Shown one piece after another: positions 3,388 to 42,598 of a stretch of 64,000 bases of DNA; the first letter of the stretch is position 1; each line of letters begins with the position of its first letter. The translations under genes were made by a program, and so were the position numbers. The stretch covers positions 1 to 64,000 of the forward strand of contig CADEFU010000001.1 of NCBI GenBank assembly GCA_902826695.1, written 5' to 3'. The stretch comes from an uncultured Alphaproteobacteria bacterium. Lineage in GTDB: Bacteria; Pseudomonadota; Alphaproteobacteria; Micropepsales; Micropepsaceae. The notes under the pieces were generated by a model. That model was not told the origin of the DNA, searched no databases, and was given only the letters and a program-made list of their open reading frames with translations.

Positions 3388-5121
3388 ATGCAGAGAGTAG
3401 CCAAGCAGCAGAAGCACGAAGAGGATTCGTTTCGTCGGTGGTGGGACGCCGATTTCTCTTGGGCCGGTCTGCGTAGGAAAGGCCGTATTGTTGATAGTCA
3501 GCCTGTTACGCTCCAGGAGTACTGGGCAGATCAGAAAGACGACTTGGTCGACTTCGGGGGGCGGAAGTGGACAAGATTCCACCTACCGCTATTCGATTTG
3601 GAGGGCGAGCCCAGTGAAAAGGCAAGGTGGCGAAGCGATGAACGGGAGAGGTTTCTCAACGACATTCTTTACCGCTTGCGAGTTGGAGTATCTGACTACC
3701 GAGGCTTTGATGGCCAATACGACGAAGAAGAGGAGAATGCGCTACCGAGAGCGCGGCTGCAAGGCGTTGTGTTTCCAGCGATTTTTGGCATTTCGAAGAC
3801 CACAGTAGCAGCCGATTTTCGTTTCGCACGATTCGAGCGATCTGTTCGCTTTGCCGATTGCAGTTTTCTCGCGGGCACTGACTTTTCCGACGCCAATCTC
3901 GCGAAAGGTGGTGAGTTCAAAAGCTGCCACTTTGCGCGGTTGGCGAAGTTTCGCCGCTGCAGTTTTGCAGGTGCGCTTTCATTTTCTGGAAGCCGCTTTG
4001 ATCGGCAGTCCGACTTCACGGAATCGGAGTTCAGAGGCGGCGCTAGTTTTGTTAGAGTAAGATTTGGTGGGGCGTCTGACTACAGCGACTCCGAGTTTGG
4101 CGACCGCGTTTCCTTTGAGAGGGCGTTATTTCGGACTGATGCCTCATTTCGGAACTGCAGCTTTTCCGGAGACGTCATCTTCCGCCACACTACCTTCGGC
4201 GACCTTGCAACATTCTCTGCCAGTGTTGGAGCGTTGTTTCCGGAGTTGGTCGACTTCTCGCATGCCCAGTTCGCCCAGGCCGCAATCTTCTCCGGGAGAG
4301 AGTTTCGCCGTCAAACACTGTTTTCAGGTGCTAGATTCGGGGCTGCACCACATTTTCAGGGTGCGACGCTGCACACGGATACAAGCTTCTCCGGATCGAT
4401 TTTTGCGTCCCAGTCGGGAACGCCAGACCTCGACAGCTGGCGCCGGGCACTGAGTAGACCCCATACCAACCGCCTCAAAGACCGATTCGCGGTTGCGTAT
4501 CGACGAAGAGTTGTTGCCGCGCGAAAGTGGCTGCCGAAGTCTCTCCGCCGCTGGCACTTCGACCAATGGCTACCCGGGTTCAAACAAGTTCGAACCTCAC
4601 GAAATCAGGCGACAGAGGAACTTGAAAGCGCCTACCGAACGTTGCGCCGTCTCACCGGAGACAATGGGAATCACGAGCATGAGGGCATGTTCTACGCACT
4701 GGAAATGAACGCTCGTAGAAACCGATCAGATGTCCGCCTCTTCGAACGGCAACTTGCGTTGTTATTCAGTTGGACATCGGGATACGGACAAGACGCGCTA
4801 CGACCATTCACGTGGTGGCTGTTCCTACTCACCGTTGCGACTTCGACGATTTGCGAAACCCTGCTGCGCAACCTGCCGCGCCCGGATATCCCTCCGTTTA
4901 GGGAAGTGCTGCGATTTACTTTTCGGCAATTCATACCGCCGCCCACTGTGTGGAGTGAGCGAGAACTAAGTGCTGCCGCCGAAGCCCATCCTTGGGTTAA
5001 GTGGCTGGTGACGCATTGTGCGTTTCCCTTGGAGTTGGGCGGAACTCTTAGCGCAATCGCAACGGTCAGTTTGATTGCCGTCTTCTTTGTGACGGTGCGA
5101 CGACGCTTTGCTCTGAAATAG
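3388..5121 (+). CDS. Pentapeptide-repeat membrane protein
   Basis: The middle of this 577-residue protein (about residues 143-340) is a run of five-residue repeats with phenylalanine at the centre and small or polar residues at the flanks (FADCSF, FSDAN, FKSCHF, FRNCSF and so on). Such repeats form a right-handed quadrilateral beta-helix. Two hydrophobic segments near residues 474-492 and 549-570 suggest a C-terminal membrane anchor. The N-terminal ~120 residues are charged and unrecognised. I chose the ATG at 3388; the frame stays open to 3268, but that extension does not look like protein. Other proteins with this layout are uncharacterised. Flanked by repeat copies B and C, and A/T-rich compared with the core genes. 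Confidence 0.8.
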   Translation: MQRVAKQQKHEEDSFRRWWDADFSWAGLRRKGRIVDSQPVTLQEYWADQKDDLVDFGGRKWTRFHLPLFDLEGEPSEKARWRSDERERFLNDILYRLRVGVSDYRGFDGQYDEEEENALPRARLQGVVFPAIFGISKTTVAADFRFARFERSVRFADCSFLAGTDFSDANLAKGGEFKSCHFARLAKFRRCSFAGALSFSGSRFDRQSDFTESEFRGGASFVRVRFGGASDYSDSEFGDRVSFERALFRTDASFRNCSFSGDVIFRHTTFGDLATFSASVGALFPELVDFSHAQFAQAAIFSGREFRRQTLFSGARFGAAPHFQGATLHTDTSFSGSIFASQSGTPDLDSWRRALSRPHTNRLKDRFAVAYRRRVVAARKWLPKSLRRWHFDQWLPGFKQVRTSRNQATEELESAYRTLRRLTGDNGNHEHEGMFYALEMNARRNRSDVRLFERQLALLFSWTSGYGQDALRPFTWWLFLLTVATSTICETLLRNLPRPDIPPFREVLRFTFRQFIPPPTVWSERELSAAAEAHPWVKWLVTHCAFPLELGGTLSAIATVSLIAVFFVTVRRRFALK

Positions 5122-5479: not shown

Positions 5480-5573
5480 GAGAACTGATGGTGCAATGGA
5501 ACATGGTCTATCTCAAGCTTCACTATTGACGCCATTCCGTAGCTATACAGAGAAACGTCATCTAACAATGCAA

Positions 5574-5600
5574 AATACGGTGACATGATACCTATTCCCT
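5574..5600. repeat. Second-family repeat, copy at 5574
   Basis: Read on the minus strand this is GGGAATAGGTATCATGTCACC followed by an A/T tail. The same element lies at 6861-6889, and related copies are at 9857 and 2741. Here it follows the stop codon of the thermonuclease tail by a few bases. Confidence 0.65.
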
Positions 5601-5604
5601 CATC

Positions 5605-5658
5605 CTAACTTGTATCCCGCAGCTTCCTCCACTGCCACGGCGGGGTGGGGTTTTCTGT
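5605..5658 (-). pseudogene. Thermonuclease gene tail, duplicated remnant
   Basis: The last ~17 codons of a staphylococcal-nuclease-like gene (ENPTPPWQWRKLRDTS then stop) are present here. They are nearly identical at the DNA level to the end of the complete gene at 6895-7401. The match continues through the second-family repeat on the left, giving an ~85-bp direct repeat (5574-5658 and 6861-6946) with only two or three differences. The upstream part of the gene is gone and is replaced by the repeat unit starting at 5665. Confidence 0.7.
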
Positions 5659-6005: not shown

Positions 6006-6701
6006 CTAGCGAAAGACCTTCCCATTTGACGCGTCGAGGTAGATTTTGTTTTCAACGGTCATTCCTCCACAGTAGGTGAAATACACCGGTCGATCTCGAT
6101 ACTGATTGACGGACTTCGTCCAACCTCCCATTTCAGCGAAATCTTCTCGCGTACATGTGCGGTCAGCGATTAGCTCAGCGGCTGCTTTAGCAAAGGCGCG
6201 GCGGTGAAGTGCGAAGTCGTCCGATTGTGCGACAAGGGTTTCATCTGCGATTGCGGTTTCGGCTGGGTCGGCTGGGCGCGTGGTTGATAGAGACTTCATT
6301 TCAACCCATTCGGCGAATATTCCATCTACGATTCCGTTTCCCTCCGTGCAGGCTGCCTGACCGCGATCAACGTACTCACTGCGACCCGCTACGCAGCTTG
6401 CGTCATACGGTTTCGTGATGCGGGCCCAACCTTTGGATTTTTCGTAGACATGAGCGGACTCGCGAAAGAAGAGTTGGCCGACCACGCCGCATCGCTTTGA
6501 GGGACATGTGCGACGATCCAACCGCTGCGCGGTGACCCAGAATTGTTCGAATTGCGCTGTGTCGGTCTTCGTAGATACCTTTGGGGGCGGGGAGGCAACG
6601 GACTTGGACGTTGGTGCTGGCGAGGGTGCCGGAGTGGTCTGCGAAGGTTCACCGCAGCCCAAGAGTGTGATGCAGAGTAAGACTGCGGATGCCTGTCGCA
6701 T
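6006..6701 (-). CDS. Lipoprotein with an SH3-like region
   Basis: The 231-residue product begins with a signal peptide ending in the lipobox LLGC, so Cys16 would be lipidated. A proline/serine/threonine linker follows, then a region around residues 55-95 (TCPSKRCGVVG, FRESAHVYEKSKGWARI) with the feel of bacterial SH3-like domains. A cysteine-containing C-terminal part is unrecognised. I chose the ATG at 6701 because AAGAGG lies six bases upstream; the frame could begin at a TTG two codons earlier. It is a cell-envelope protein of unknown role within the repeat-bounded island. Confidence 0.75.
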   Translation of the reverse strand: MRQASAVLLCITLLGCGEPSQTTPAPSPAPTSKSVASPPPKVSTKTDTAQFEQFWVTAQRLDRRTCPSKRCGVVGQLFFRESAHVYEKSKGWARITKPYDASCVAGRSEYVDRGQAACTEGNGIVDGIFAEWVEMKSLSTTRPADPAETAIADETLVAQSDDFALHRRAFAKAAAELIADRTCTREDFAEMGGWTKSVNQYRDRPVYFTYCGGMTVENKIYLDASNGKVFR

Positions 6702-6725
6702 TTTCAACCTCTTAAGACCCCGCTC

Positions 6726-6752: not shown

Positions 6753-6865
6753 CTAGGGCTTCGCCCGCATCTGCGCTACCGAGTTGCTGATATCGGTGAG
6801 GATGCCGATCACGATCGCGAACAGTACCGTGTAGATGCCTCGGTCTATTGCTTGGCCGCAAAAAA
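6753..6865 (-). pseudogene. Membrane-protein tail, gene remnant
   Basis: About 37 codons read as a hydrophobic C-terminus (GIYTVLFAIVIGILTDI, then SNSVAQMRAKP and a stop at 6753-6755). The codons have high GC at third positions, so this was coding sequence. Its upstream end stops exactly where the second-family repeat begins, and there is no start codon. It is a 3' fragment of an unidentified membrane-protein gene. Confidence 0.5.
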
Positions 6866-6889
6866 TACGGTGACATGATACCTATTCCC
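6861..6889. repeat. Second-family repeat, copy at 6861
   Basis: Read on the minus strand this is GGGAATAGGTATCATGTCACC plus an A/T-rich tail, as at 5574. It lies six bases after the thermonuclease stop and cuts the membrane-protein tail. Confidence 0.65.
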
Positions 6890-6894
6890 TCATC

Positions 6895-7401
6895 CTAACT
6901 TGTATTCTGCAGCTTCCTCCACTGCCACGGCGGGGTGGGGTTTTCTGTGCGCCACAGGCCAACCTTCTTGGACTTTGCCCAGCCTTCGAGGTGGTTCAGT
7001 TTGGTTTGGCGGTCGTTCGGGAGGTGGTCGTAGTAGATGCGCATCACCCACGCGTGGCCGAGCGTGACCATGCGCTCGTTCACGTTCAGCCATTCGTTTC
7101 CGTTCGTGTGGCGAACGTAGATCGTGGCGAGCGTCCGGCCGTGCGTATCGAACCCGTGTTCTTCAAGAGCCACGTTGCGGCCGCCGACAAGCTTGATGAG
7201 GCCGGCTTTGGCGATGTTGCCCCAAGGCTGACCGTCCTCCGGGCAGTCGATGGAGTCGAGCCGGATCGTCGTCTGGTTCCACCCCTTGGCGACTATCAAT
7301 GTATCGCCGTCCAGCACGCGCATGACTTTGGCGCGCGGTAGATCGTCGAGGAAATTTCGGGGACACGTAACAAATTCAATTGACTTCGCAGTGCCGATCA
7401 C
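6895..7401 (-). CDS. Thermonuclease (staphylococcal-nuclease-like domain)
   Basis: The product is a calcium-dependent nuclease-type domain that hydrolyses DNA or RNA in this family. DGDTLIV begins the OB-fold. Arg47 and Glu55 (IRLDSIDCPE) and Arg89 (DTHGRTLA) match the three catalytic residues of staphylococcal nuclease, and EGWAKSKKVGLW is the usual C-terminal helix. The domain is complete, but the N-terminal ~16 residues come from palindromic repeat copy F (IEFVTCP is repeat sequence). The original start and any signal peptide have been lost or replaced. The GTG at 7401 is the only in-frame start upstream of the domain, so expression is uncertain. Confidence 0.8.
   Translation of the reverse strand: MIGTAKSIEFVTCPRNFLDDLPRAKVMRVLDGDTLIVAKGWNQTTIRLDSIDCPEDGQPWGNIAKAGLIKLVGGRNVALEEHGFDTHGRTLATIYVRHTNGNEWLNVNERMVTLGHAWVMRIYYDHLPNDRQTKLNHLEGWAKSKKVGLWRTENPTPPWQWRKLQNTS
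7353..7381. repeat. Half copy of palindromic repeat, family 1, copy F
   Basis: CGGGGACACGTAACAAATTC with flanking bases is the left arm only. It supplies the first codons of the thermonuclease frame and the stop codon of the small frame at 7376-7612. Confidence 0.65.
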
Positions 7402-39438: not shown

Positions 39439-40038
39439 ATGAACCAATTGCTCAGAGCGCTGTTGCTCTCCGCCAGTTGCGCGCTTGCGTTGCCGCTGCA
39501 TGCGGAAACGAAAGACATGGCTGCCGGGGCCGTGATGAAGGACGGACTCATCTACAAGGGTGGCGTTGTGATGATGATGCCGGTGCCGAACGATGCGCCT
39601 GCATCTTCCATTGCGGAACCTGCAGAGATCGAAATTACCGGCGGCGACGGCAACGCAAAGCAGTGCTTAACAACCGCGATTTACTTCGAAGCGCGTGGGG
39701 AAAGTTTGAAAGGGCAGAAGGCGGTCGGCGAGGTGATCATGAAGCGCACGCGGCAGGCCGGACGGCCGAAGACGGTGTGCGGCGTTGTCTACGAAGGTTC
39801 GCACCGGCGCACGGGGTGCCAGTTCTCATTTACGTGCGACGGGATCGCGGACAAGGTGCGCGACAGTGCGGCGTGGGCGCGGGCGAAGAAGGCGGCCGCC
39901 GCGGTTCTGCGTACTGGTGGGCGGGGAAAGTTTGCGCGCGGCGCCACGCACTATCACGCGAACTATGTGACGCCGTATTGGGCCTCGAGTATGCGCAAGG
40001 TCGCGCGCATCGGAACGCACGTGTTCTACAGGGACTAG
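39439..40038 (+). CDS. SleB-like cell-wall hydrolase (Hydrolase_2 domain)
   Basis: The 199-residue protein has a signal peptide (about residues 1-22). Its C-terminal Hydrolase_2 (SleB-type) domain shows CLTTAIYFEARGESLKGQKAVGEV with the catalytic glutamate, CGVVYEG, CQFSFTCDG and GATHYHANYVTPYWA. Such enzymes cleave peptidoglycan, and in Gram-negatives they probably act in wall remodelling. The stop codon TAG lies in the palindrome CTAG, which in the left copy of the duplicated Rieske gene end is also the stop on the other strand. Confidence 0.87.
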   Translation: MNQLLRALLLSASCALALPLHAETKDMAAGAVMKDGLIYKGGVVMMMPVPNDAPASSIAEPAEIEITGGDGNAKQCLTTAIYFEARGESLKGQKAVGEVIMKRTRQAGRPKTVCGVVYEGSHRRTGCQFSFTCDGIADKVRDSAAWARAKKAAAAVLRTGGRGKFARGATHYHANYVTPYWASSMRKVARIGTHVFYRD

Positions 40039-40190
40039 TTCGGCGCTCGTTCGAGGTTGGCTTCGGGGATGAGCGTGCGCATGCGGCTGGCGAAGGAAGC
40101 GAGGCACACTTCCTTCGGCGACAGCGGGCCTGAGGTGTAGCTCGACGACGACATGCCGGCTTGCACGCCTTCGATCAGCTTCGCTTTTCA
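40035..40190 (-). pseudogene. Detached 3' end of a Rieske oxygenase gene (left copy of a direct repeat)
   Basis: On the minus strand these ~155 bases code for the C-terminal ~48 residues of a Rieske oxygenase (LIEGVQAGMSSSSYTSGPLS, then PKEVCLASFASRMRTLIPEA and NLERAPN, stop). The intact gene at 41492-42598 ends with nearly the same sequence. The DNA differs at about nine positions, and the protein shows conservative changes such as Ser for Thr and Ser for Asn. There is no start. The two copies flank the HEAT-like gene at 40193-41473. Confidence 0.8.
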
Positions 40191-40192
40191 GC

Positions 40193-41473
40193 TCAAGCTC
40201 GACCGAATAGCGCGGTGATTTCCGGCACCGCGTCATAGCGACATTCCTCGGCCATCCAAGCGGGGATCCTTTCAGACGCAAGCAGCTTCGTCACAACTTC
40301 TTCCCGGCAGACCGAACACGGGTTCCTTTCGTAGAGCTCTAAAAGGGTGCGTTCTCTCTCTGCAGGTGAAACCGGAGCGTGGTCAAATACTTCCAGAATC
40401 GAAGTGCCCAGATTGTGGAACTCAAAGTCGTCGTCACCAACTGCTGCGAGCACTCGTTCGATCAGGGCGATATCACCGTGCTGCCAGTTGCTCTTCAGCA
40501 ACAGAATGCCGTCCGCCCCACGCTTTCCGTCCGAGACAAGTTCTAGCGCCAAGCTGCGGACCTCCGGATGGCCAATCCTGCTCAGGGCCCGGACTGCCGC
40601 GTGTGCGACACGATCATTGTCACTGTGGGCTAATTTGACAAGGTCCGCGGGCAGTTTCGGAAAGTCCCGCTTCCAGAATAGGCGCAAGTATCGGCAAGTC
40701 AGATTGTTATCCGTTGAAGAAAGCAATTGATCCGCCGTCCATTCAAGATCTTCGGCGCGAGCTTCCTGAATCCACGTGTAGGGGACGGGTTGGTTGTTTG
40801 CCAGGCGATTCCTGACGGTTTCGCGGTCCACAGTGCTTTCAATCTTCCCGTCCGACTGTTCCGGAGTTTCAACTTCGTGCATCAAGCGGTCCAGTTCCGG
40901 GTCGCTCTCACGTGCTTGCCGCAACAGTGCTGCGGCGATCTCTTCACCATCCCGCTCGACGAGTTCGCTTATCAGAAATCGGAATGGCCATTGCTCGCGG
41001 CCGACCTGGTCAGCGAAACTGCGGAAACAGAACGTCAATCCCGCGAGACCTTCCAACCTGACAAGAGGTTTCATGCAGTATTGTGCGATAGTTCCAAAGT
41101 CTGCTGAGAGCAGACGGGAGCGCAGTACACTGCGATCCAACTCCTGGTTCTCCGTTGCGAGCTGGCAAAGGACTTCAAACATCTGTATCCGGTCGGCGCC
41201 GCGGTCTTTTTCTCCCGCTTCCACAAACGCCTGAAGCAACTCATCCCAATAGAAGCGGCCGTCTCCGACTTCGTTTATCAAATTGCACAGATACGGCGCC
41301 CTGGAGAGTTCGCATTGGGTGTCGTAGACGAGGTTTGCCTTGCAGGCGTGCATCAGTTCAGTCCGAAAGACCGGATTGAGGGGAGCCTTCCTCAGTAGTA
41401 TCATCGCACGGCCGAGCCCTTTCTTCAGCGCAGATGCGAATTCAGAATCTCTTGCCATTGACCTCCGGGCCAT
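40193..41473 (-). CDS. HEAT-like repeat protein, inserted single gene
   Basis: The 426-residue protein is all helical in appearance. Its C-terminal half has HEAT-type repeats (VKLAHSDNDRVAHAAVRALS, IGHPEVRSLALELVSD). The N-terminal half has LRKAPLNPVFRTELMHACKA and YDTQCELSRAPYLCNLIN, a pattern I associate with uncharacterised HEAT proteins. No catalytic motif is seen. It fills almost exactly the space between two copies of the Rieske-gene 3' end, and its codons are more A/T-rich than the neighbours. The start is either ATG 41473 or ATG 41458 (GGAGG three bases upstream). It is close enough behind the Rieske stop to share its transcript. Confidence 0.75.
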   Translation of the reverse strand: MARRSMARDSEFASALKKGLGRAMILLRKAPLNPVFRTELMHACKANLVYDTQCELSRAPYLCNLINEVGDGRFYWDELLQAFVEAGEKDRGADRIQMFEVLCQLATENQELDRSVLRSRLLSADFGTIAQYCMKPLVRLEGLAGLTFCFRSFADQVGREQWPFRFLISELVERDGEEIAAALLRQARESDPELDRLMHEVETPEQSDGKIESTVDRETVRNRLANNQPVPYTWIQEARAEDLEWTADQLLSSTDNNLTCRYLRLFWKRDFPKLPADLVKLAHSDNDRVAHAAVRALSRIGHPEVRSLALELVSDGKRGADGILLLKSNWQHGDIALIERVLAAVGDDDFEFHNLGTSILEVFDHAPVSPAERERTLLELYERNPCSVCREEVVTKLLASERIPAWMAEECRYDAVPEITALFGRA

Positions 41474-41490
41474 TGCGTCCGTCTTCTATC

Positions 41491-41640
41491 GCTAGTTCGG
41501 CGCTCGTTCGAGGTTGGCTTCGGGGATGAGCGTGCGCATGCGGTTGGCGAAGGAAGCGAGGCACACCTCCTTCGGCGACAGCGGGCCTGACGTGTAACTG
41601 GACGAGGTCATGCCGGCTTGGACGCCTTCGATGAGGCGCG
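41491..41640. repeat. Right copy of the Rieske-gene 3'-end direct repeat
   Basis: From CTAGTTCGGCGCTCG to about GACGCCTTCGAT this stretch matches 40035-40180 at over 90 percent. Here it is the genuine end of the Rieske gene. Together with the left copy it brackets the HEAT-like gene. Confidence 0.85.
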
Positions 41641-42598
41641 TGTCTTCGGCGTTGACTTGGCGGTTGATGCGCCAGTTCAGATAGCGTGCGGCGTGGACTT
41701 CGCGGTTCTTCACCGGGTGCACGTAGGCGATCTCGCGGATCAACGTTTCGGTCGGTGAGACCGGGATGAACTGCATGAAGTCGACTTGATCCGGGTAGAT
41801 GTCGAAGGCAACGTTCGGCCATAGTTTGTAGTAGACCCACGTGCGACGAAGGTGCGCGGGCACGTGATCGAGGCTGCCCAGCAGGCTTTGATAGGCGCGC
41901 TCCGACCAATTCTCCGAGCGGTTTTGCTGAAGCTCACCCGACATCTTGTCGACCCATGTCTGTGCTTCGATTTTGTAGGTCGAGCCGAACAGGCGCGAGA
42001 GACCCGGGTGCGCAACCGGGATGTGCATGCCGTCGGAGTAGTTGTCGGCGATGTTCTTCCAATTCACGGTACGCGGGCGGAGCGTAACGCGGCCGTTTGG
42101 GATCAGTGTTTCCAGCGCGTAAGGTTTCAGTTCCTCCACGTAAGGCGCCATCATCTCAGCGATCGAGGGCAAGCCCGTTTCGAAGCGCACGAAGATGAAG
42201 CCTTGGAAGATCTCCTGCTCTACGGGGTGCAGGCCGTGTTTCGCCTTGTCGAGGTCGTCGAACCCCTGCCACTTCGGTGTGGCCGCGAGGTCGCCTTCGT
42301 GTGTGTAGCTCCAAGCGTGATAGGGGCAAACGAGGCGGTGGCCGCAATGGCCGCGCGCCTCGGGCGCAATCTTCGCGGCGCGGTGGCGGCAGACATTGTG
42401 GAAGCTTCTGAGTTGGCCGTCCTGACCGCGGAGGGTGACGACGCGATCACCCAGCACGTCGAGCGTGATGTAGTCGCCGGGCTGCGGGGCGTCGTTGATG
42501 TGGCCCATGATGTGCCAGGTCTGGCGAAAGACCTTCGCGCGCTCCAGTTCGAAGAAGCGTGGGTCGGTGTAGAGCCATCCGGGCAGGCTGGTGTTCAT
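41492..42598 (-). CDS. Rieske non-haem iron oxygenase, alpha subunit type
   Basis: The 368-residue protein has the Rieske [2Fe-2S] ligands C70-x-H72 and C91-xx-H94 (NVCRHRAAKI and CPYHAWSY) and the mononuclear iron motif NYSDGMHIPVAHPGL with His191 and His196. These enzymes use O2 and electrons from a reductase to hydroxylate or demethylate small molecules. No ferredoxin or reductase gene is adjacent. The last ~50 codons are duplicated further downstream (see 40035-40190), so the present C-terminus may have come from a related strain. Confidence 0.88.
   Translation of the reverse strand: MNTSLPGWLYTDPRFFELERAKVFRQTWHIMGHINDAPQPGDYITLDVLGDRVVTLRGQDGQLRSFHNVCRHRAAKIAPEARGHCGHRLVCPYHAWSYTHEGDLAATPKWQGFDDLDKAKHGLHPVEQEIFQGFIFVRFETGLPSIAEMMAPYVEELKPYALETLIPNGRVTLRPRTVNWKNIADNYSDGMHIPVAHPGLSRLFGSTYKIEAQTWVDKMSGELQQNRSENWSERAYQSLLGSLDHVPAHLRRTWVYYKLWPNVAFDIYPDQVDFMQFIPVSPTETLIREIAYVHPVKNREVHAARYLNWRINRQVNAEDTRLIEGVQAGMTSSSYTSGPLSPKEVCLASFANRMRTLIPEANLERAPN

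Follow-up and report, generated by a model that had tools for sequence, protein, structure and literature searches.

A gene for a HEAT-repeat protein lies inserted between the converging ends of a Rieske oxygenase gene and a SleB-like gene, flanked by two copies of the Rieske gene's 3' end that are alleles and not a decayed duplicate. We give about an even chance to the reading that the gene was captured by homologous recombination, through one crossover with a small circular DNA from a related species. On this reading the process is a known one, with an ordinary metabolic gene as its unusual target and no integrase. The locus preserves a readable scar of gene entry into a chromosome without integrase or transposase and with unharmed neighbours, and the likely crossover zone spans about 50 nt.

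Layout of the locus and the empty site

All positions refer to the window, the whole stretch of 64,000 nucleotides that was analysed. The features of the locus are collected in Table 1.

Table 1. Features of the HEAT locus (positions in the window)
Feature	Positions	Strand	Remarks
SleB-like cell-wall hydrolase gene (Hydrolase_2, PF07486)	39439-40038	+	Ends FYRD*; stop overlaps the left Rieske tail in CTAG
Left Rieske 3'-end copy	40035-40178	-	48 codons including stop; orphan fragment without the remainder of the gene
Foreign HEAT-side block of the left copy	40110-40178	-	G005-like; holds 8 of the 9 mismatches to the right copy; position of inner border uncertain
52-nt block, same in both copies	40035-40086, partner 41492-41543	-	Candidate crossover zone
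14-nt joint, HEAT stop codon to left copy	40179-40192	-	Putative illegitimate ligation joint, as read from the sequence
Captured HEAT-repeat gene	40193-41458	-	421 aa; alternative start upstream, 41473
Second SleB end, stub (VFYR*)	41481-41495	+	Type of sister species G007; unlike the resident FYRD*
Right Rieske 3'-end copy	41492-41635	-	Functional end of the Rieske gene
Rieske oxygenase alpha-subunit gene	41492-42598	-	Intact; 368 aa; PF00355 and PF00848

The two Rieske tails form a direct repeat of 144 nt with 94% identity and exactly nine mismatches. The HEAT gene is the only long gene between them. Its GC is 0.557 and its GC3 0.616; the Rieske gene has 0.618 and 0.816, and the genome GC is about 0.62. 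The repeat, the open reading frames and the base composition confirm the original prediction of a single A/T-richer gene between two ends of the Rieske gene. Only its start was corrected, from 41473 to the second ATG at 41458, which lies behind a GGAGG motif and is the likely start because both relatives in the genus begin there. The right copy completes an intact oxygenase gene, as had been proposed. The left copy shares its stop overlap with the SleB-like gene, also as proposed, and a single CTAG holds both stops. This copy consists of a Rieske tail only, and its interpretation as a separate gene was rejected.

No second gene and no integrase was found in the insert between the copies, in line with the earlier description, and an integrase-borne island was rejected on this ground. 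A tRNA target and a short att core are absent as well, so that the likeness to integrative elements drawn earlier is superficial. Likewise, no transposase, terminal inverted repeats or identical short duplication were found at the locus. A second SleB end beyond the right copy had been missed. Past the CTAG, the right copy extends into the end of another SleB gene, about 15 nt long (GTCTTCTATCGCTAG, VFYR*). The ten nucleotides adjoining the CTAG are the same as in G007, and the resident SleB gene uses different codons.

Ten other genomes of the genus were compared for an empty site, and the expected arrangement was seen in the sister species G007. There, the SleB-like and Rieske genes converge on one CTAG with nothing between them. 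G007 shares the neighbourhood, with 91% identity for the Rieske gene, about 65% for SleB and the same glycosyltransferase, orf144 and p163 neighbours. Compared with G007, both resident genes are intact and no deletion accompanied the insertion. The HEAT protein is encoded in 3 of 96 family genomes (G000, which is this genome, G002 and G006) and in one of 398 genomes of the phylum sample (G000 only). This patchy distribution supports the proposed insertion; the HEAT gene is a patchy acquisition.

Two alleles of one gene end

The number and effect of the differences between the copies agree well with the original estimate of about nine with mild protein effect. The nine substitutions cause two amino-acid changes (T/S and N/S), no stops and no indels. 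In a simulation of neutral decay, two or fewer amino-acid changes from nine random mutations in an idle copy had a P of 0.0016-0.0037. The copies are therefore alleles. Over codons 1-16 of the 48, they differ at 7 of 48 nt, which is the interspecies level. Over codons 32-48 they differ at 0 of 51 nt, yet G007, G008 and G010 depart from both copies at 9-15 of 51.

The origin of the left copy was judged against species G005. Its HEAT-side third matches G005 at 47 of 48 nt, with seven differences from the right copy. At the sites where the right copy and G005 differ, the left copy follows G005 at 7 of 8 on the HEAT side and the right copy at 12 of 13 on the far side. For this mosaic the Fisher test gave 0.0005 and permutation 0.0017; G005 was the best of four relatives, so these P values are to be discounted about fourfold, and the test rests on 144 informative nt only. 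Because the differences are clustered, G005-like on the HEAT side and right-copy-like on the far side, the left copy is a chimera of a foreign block beside HEAT and a resident block beside SleB.

The earlier view that one copy came from a relative thus stands in so far as the copies descend from different alleles, but it was probably wrong on which copy is foreign. It had held that the insert brought the replacement end that now completes the oxygenase. The Rieske part of the right copy resembles native sequence, and foreign-looking bases are limited to the short SleB piece that follows it. It is the left, non-functional copy that holds clearly foreign Rieske sequence, in its HEAT-side third. 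The flanking markers are exchanged: the right copy combines resident-like Rieske codons with a G007-type SleB stub, and the left copy combines foreign Rieske codons with the resident SleB. Such an exchange around the identical block is predicted by a single crossover with circular DNA.

The same data bear on a long target-site duplication, made by an unknown transposition-like insertion, with copies that diverged later. Both tails border the insert exactly, as such a duplication would have it, and two more near-identical gene-end duplications surround single genes on the same contig. We consider this origin very improbable. The divergence is limited to one end of the repeat, follows the sequence of another species and is mostly silent in a dead copy, the SleB ends are different alleles, no transposase is present, and 144-155 nt would be a very long duplication. 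Transposition with target-site duplication was ruled against on length, clustered divergence and the different SleB alleles.

Route of entry and other gene-end duplications

In the single-crossover model, a small circle, or transiently circularised DNA, from a related species would have had the HEAT gene as cargo, joined to about 155 bp of the donor's Rieske/SleB junction. A single crossover within the final ~50 nt of the resident Rieske gene would have brought the circle in. Read along the minus strand, the product would consist, in this order, of the resident Rieske gene, the donor's SleB stub, HEAT, the donor's Rieske block, the tail of the resident Rieske gene and the resident SleB. Both resident genes would stay whole, with an orphan tail separating HEAT from SleB. 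The crossover would have fallen in the 52-nt identical block, whose two versions either were alike from the start or became so through mismatch repair. The HEAT gene would have come with its ribosome-binding site; it has no evident promoter of its own and so probably depends on read-through from the Rieske gene for its expression.

Circularised linear DNA is known to integrate by single crossover in E. coli, with gene-end duplications of 109-950 bp as the usual product (Amarir-Bouhram et al. 2011, PMC3240628), and the displacement of Rhs tips has been proposed to pass through circular intermediates (Jackson et al. 2009, PMC2935791). HEAT relatives that reside on plasmids also count in favour of a circle. 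Some observations count against the model. G005 has no HEAT gene, its contig breaks off within the Rieske tail, and in G002 no repeats flank the HEAT gene. Furthermore, the distal block should show some differences after a plain crossover, unless donor and resident already agreed there or mismatch repair evened them out.

An alternative route is homology-facilitated illegitimate recombination (HFIR) of linear DNA. Here, Rieske homology would anchor one end, the other end would be joined illegitimately 10-15 nt inside SleB, and the duplication would arise via two sister chromosomes. This accounts for the Rieske-tail anchor and for the illegitimate joint, and HFIR was put forward to explain gene ends displaced in Vibrio T6SS arrays (Kirchberger et al. 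2017, PMC5361080). HFIR predicts homology on one side only; the locus has one non-homologous joint, at 40179-40192, and about 15 nt of SleB on the opposite side. However, HFIR products usually show a deletion of about the size of the insert and 3-10 bp of microhomology at the joint (PMC3240628), and the locus shows a duplication and no deletion. HFIR alone also gives no reason to expect foreign sequence on both sides, a SleB stub at one and a Rieske block at the other. We regard it as unlikely and rank it second, because the deletion that it generally leaves is absent here.

The whole block of two tails and HEAT could also be old in another lineage and have been imported by double crossover, followed by gene conversion between the tails. 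Import would explain both the allelic differences and the homogenised distal block. However, no relative with the two tails around HEAT was found in the 96 family genomes, and the origin is shifted elsewhere and not explained, which makes this history improbable. Finally, an assembly artefact in the form of a strain chimera was considered, since the genome is a draft of 30 contigs. The contig is 647 kb long, completeness is 99.7% and contamination 0.4%, the nearest N run is 194 kb away, and two separate false HEAT joints would be needed. An artefact is thus hardly credible. The single crossover with a circle is the reading that we retain.

Local direct-repeat pairs were scanned in 1.80 Mb of stretches from this genome (at least 60 nt, at least 82% identity, 0.2-8 kb apart). 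Only 10 such pairs were detected, so the repeat that flanks HEAT is not a chance pattern, and the repeat pairs around other genes indicate that the process is not confined to HEAT. In the window, an 87-nt direct repeat with two mismatches (5572-5658 and 6862-6948) copies the 3' end and downstream flank of an SNase-like gene (6895-7401, minus strand) beyond a lipoprotein-like gene (6006-6707, minus strand), with the same anatomy as the HEAT locus. Neither gene has relatives in the genus that could show an empty site, and the repeat was not accepted as a proven second case. A 140-nt repeat of 97% identity on contig C1 (255939-256078 and 256978-257115; L104) comprises an apparent parE 5' end with upstream sequence and surrounds a small ORF (256071-256784, minus strand). 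On contig C4, an Rhs/YD-repeat gene has an orphan 3' piece of 534 nt (118-651 and 4139-4672, 94%; L145) with a Sel1-like (Sel1-repeat) gene between, which makes it a classic case of tip displacement.

In G006, the HEAT relative lies with a DUF433 gene between two 387-nt copies (92%) of another junction. A second G006 contig shares an overlap of 109 identical nt with the HEAT contig. It holds a truncated version of the neighbouring dehydrogenase-like gene end, at 90% identity, and a third copy of the repeat. Joined (C353, L034, and C170, L086), the order reads dehydrogenase-like end, repeat, DUF433-HEAT, repeat, HigAB-like pair, truncated second dehydrogenase end and third repeat. The order suggests that two insertions took place in succession and that a diverged copy of the target's end lies behind each. 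Part of the 387-nt repeat is an interspersed palindromic element, and the G006 locus is therefore supportive rather than decisive.

The HEAT protein and comparison with known systems

The sole significant Pfam match of the HEAT protein is HEAT_2 (PF13646, E 1.3e-6), just above the cut-off. The predicted structure is an all-helical solenoid with a mean pLDDT of 82. Its best PDB matches are weak and fall on HEAT/ARM solenoids and designed repeat proteins, with no close structural match. Matches this generic led us to reject an assignment of function from structure. With dN of about 0.27-0.30 and dS of 1.1-1.6 (dS being near saturation), the substitution rates place the gene under purifying selection. 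PADLOC returned no credible defence-system match, and a defence-system label was dropped. Carriage by viruses or phages was likewise rejected, as no relative was found in IMG/VR or INPHARED.

Outside the genus, the relatives are full-length and share 27-37% identity with the HEAT protein of the window. They occupy unrelated loci, so the suggestion that the gene might always follow a Rieske gene did not hold. In Ca. Aquidulcis the relative stands beside an HEPN/MNT pair. In Gimesia (L039, 9959-11278) it is the last gene of a Pnkp-ligase/RlaP/RlaP cluster. Two Methylosinus plasmids carry it in an RtcB-PrfH-HEAT-HEAT cluster, which on pOB3b2 (L194, 4155-8218) contains RtcB-PrfH and a second HEAT protein. 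A Deinococcus plasmid encodes a relative without RNA-repair neighbours.

RtcB2-PrfH protects E. coli against the ribotoxin colicin E3 (Maviza et al. 2022, PMC9223846). A survey of 2019 lists TPR, NTase and other partners, and the word HEAT is absent from it (Burroughs and Aravind 2019, PMC6514570); the family may have been mentioned earlier, in the RNA-repair paper of Burroughs and Aravind 2016. The genome analysed here has an RtcB2-PrfH RNA-repair operon on contig C4 (300474-302239; L160) with no HEAT gene beside it. Within the genus, PrfH above the family cut-off was found in G000 and G010 only, and HEAT in G000, G002 and G006. A strict co-occurrence of HEAT and PrfH was rejected. The RNA-repair link is contextual and not strict, because G002 and G006 have HEAT without a true PrfH.

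Based on these neighbourhoods, we tentatively suggest, at somewhat less than even confidence, that the protein may be a HEAT-solenoid accessory scaffold of RNA repair or of the RNA-damage response. A wider proposal is speculative and rather doubtful: an undescribed HEAT-solenoid family would be a shared accessory of RtcB-PrfH and Pnkp-RlaP systems, and in the genus it would spread repeatedly as promoterless single-gene cargo on circles with borrowed gene ends and no recombinase of its own. Through its cargo, the locus draws attention to a protein family that is unstudied and turns up again in the RNA-repair operons of distant bacteria. The recombination route is itself known in principle.

Among known systems, the RtcB-PrfH operons (PMC6514570, PMC9223846) are similar in that HEAT relatives form the third gene on the two Methylosinus plasmids; in contrast, the HEAT gene here stands alone, away from the genome's own RtcB2-PrfH operon. 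The Vibrio T6SS immunity arrays attributed to HFIR (PMC5361080) share a homologous anchor, an unrelated gene added on the 3' side of a gene and an old 3' end moved downstream. Unlike those arrays, this locus has no effector or immunity genes, both neighbours are intact, and the gene end is duplicated and not displaced. In the E. coli single-crossover case (PMC3240628), the insert is also flanked by a duplicated gene end of 109-950 bp that served as homology. That was a laboratory conjugation with identical homology, whereas here the homology is diverged and the event natural.

Displacement of Rhs tips (PMC2935791) offers several points of likeness. There, as would be the case here, a single crossover in the conserved part of a resident gene places new DNA behind that gene without a recombinase, and an orphan old gene end, here the left copy, lies downstream of the newcomer. 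The orphan and attached ends are different alleles, and the flanking markers are exchanged. At our locus, however, the resident gene encodes a metabolic oxygenase, this protein has stayed unchanged, and the cargo is one complete gene. Rhs loci carry a polymorphic toxin tip and an immunity gene in place of a Rieske oxygenase and HEAT cargo, so the locus works like an Rhs locus but is not one. The finding is largely explained by a known recombination route at an unusual target, and it suggests that the displacement process of toxin loci also acts at an ordinary metabolic gene.
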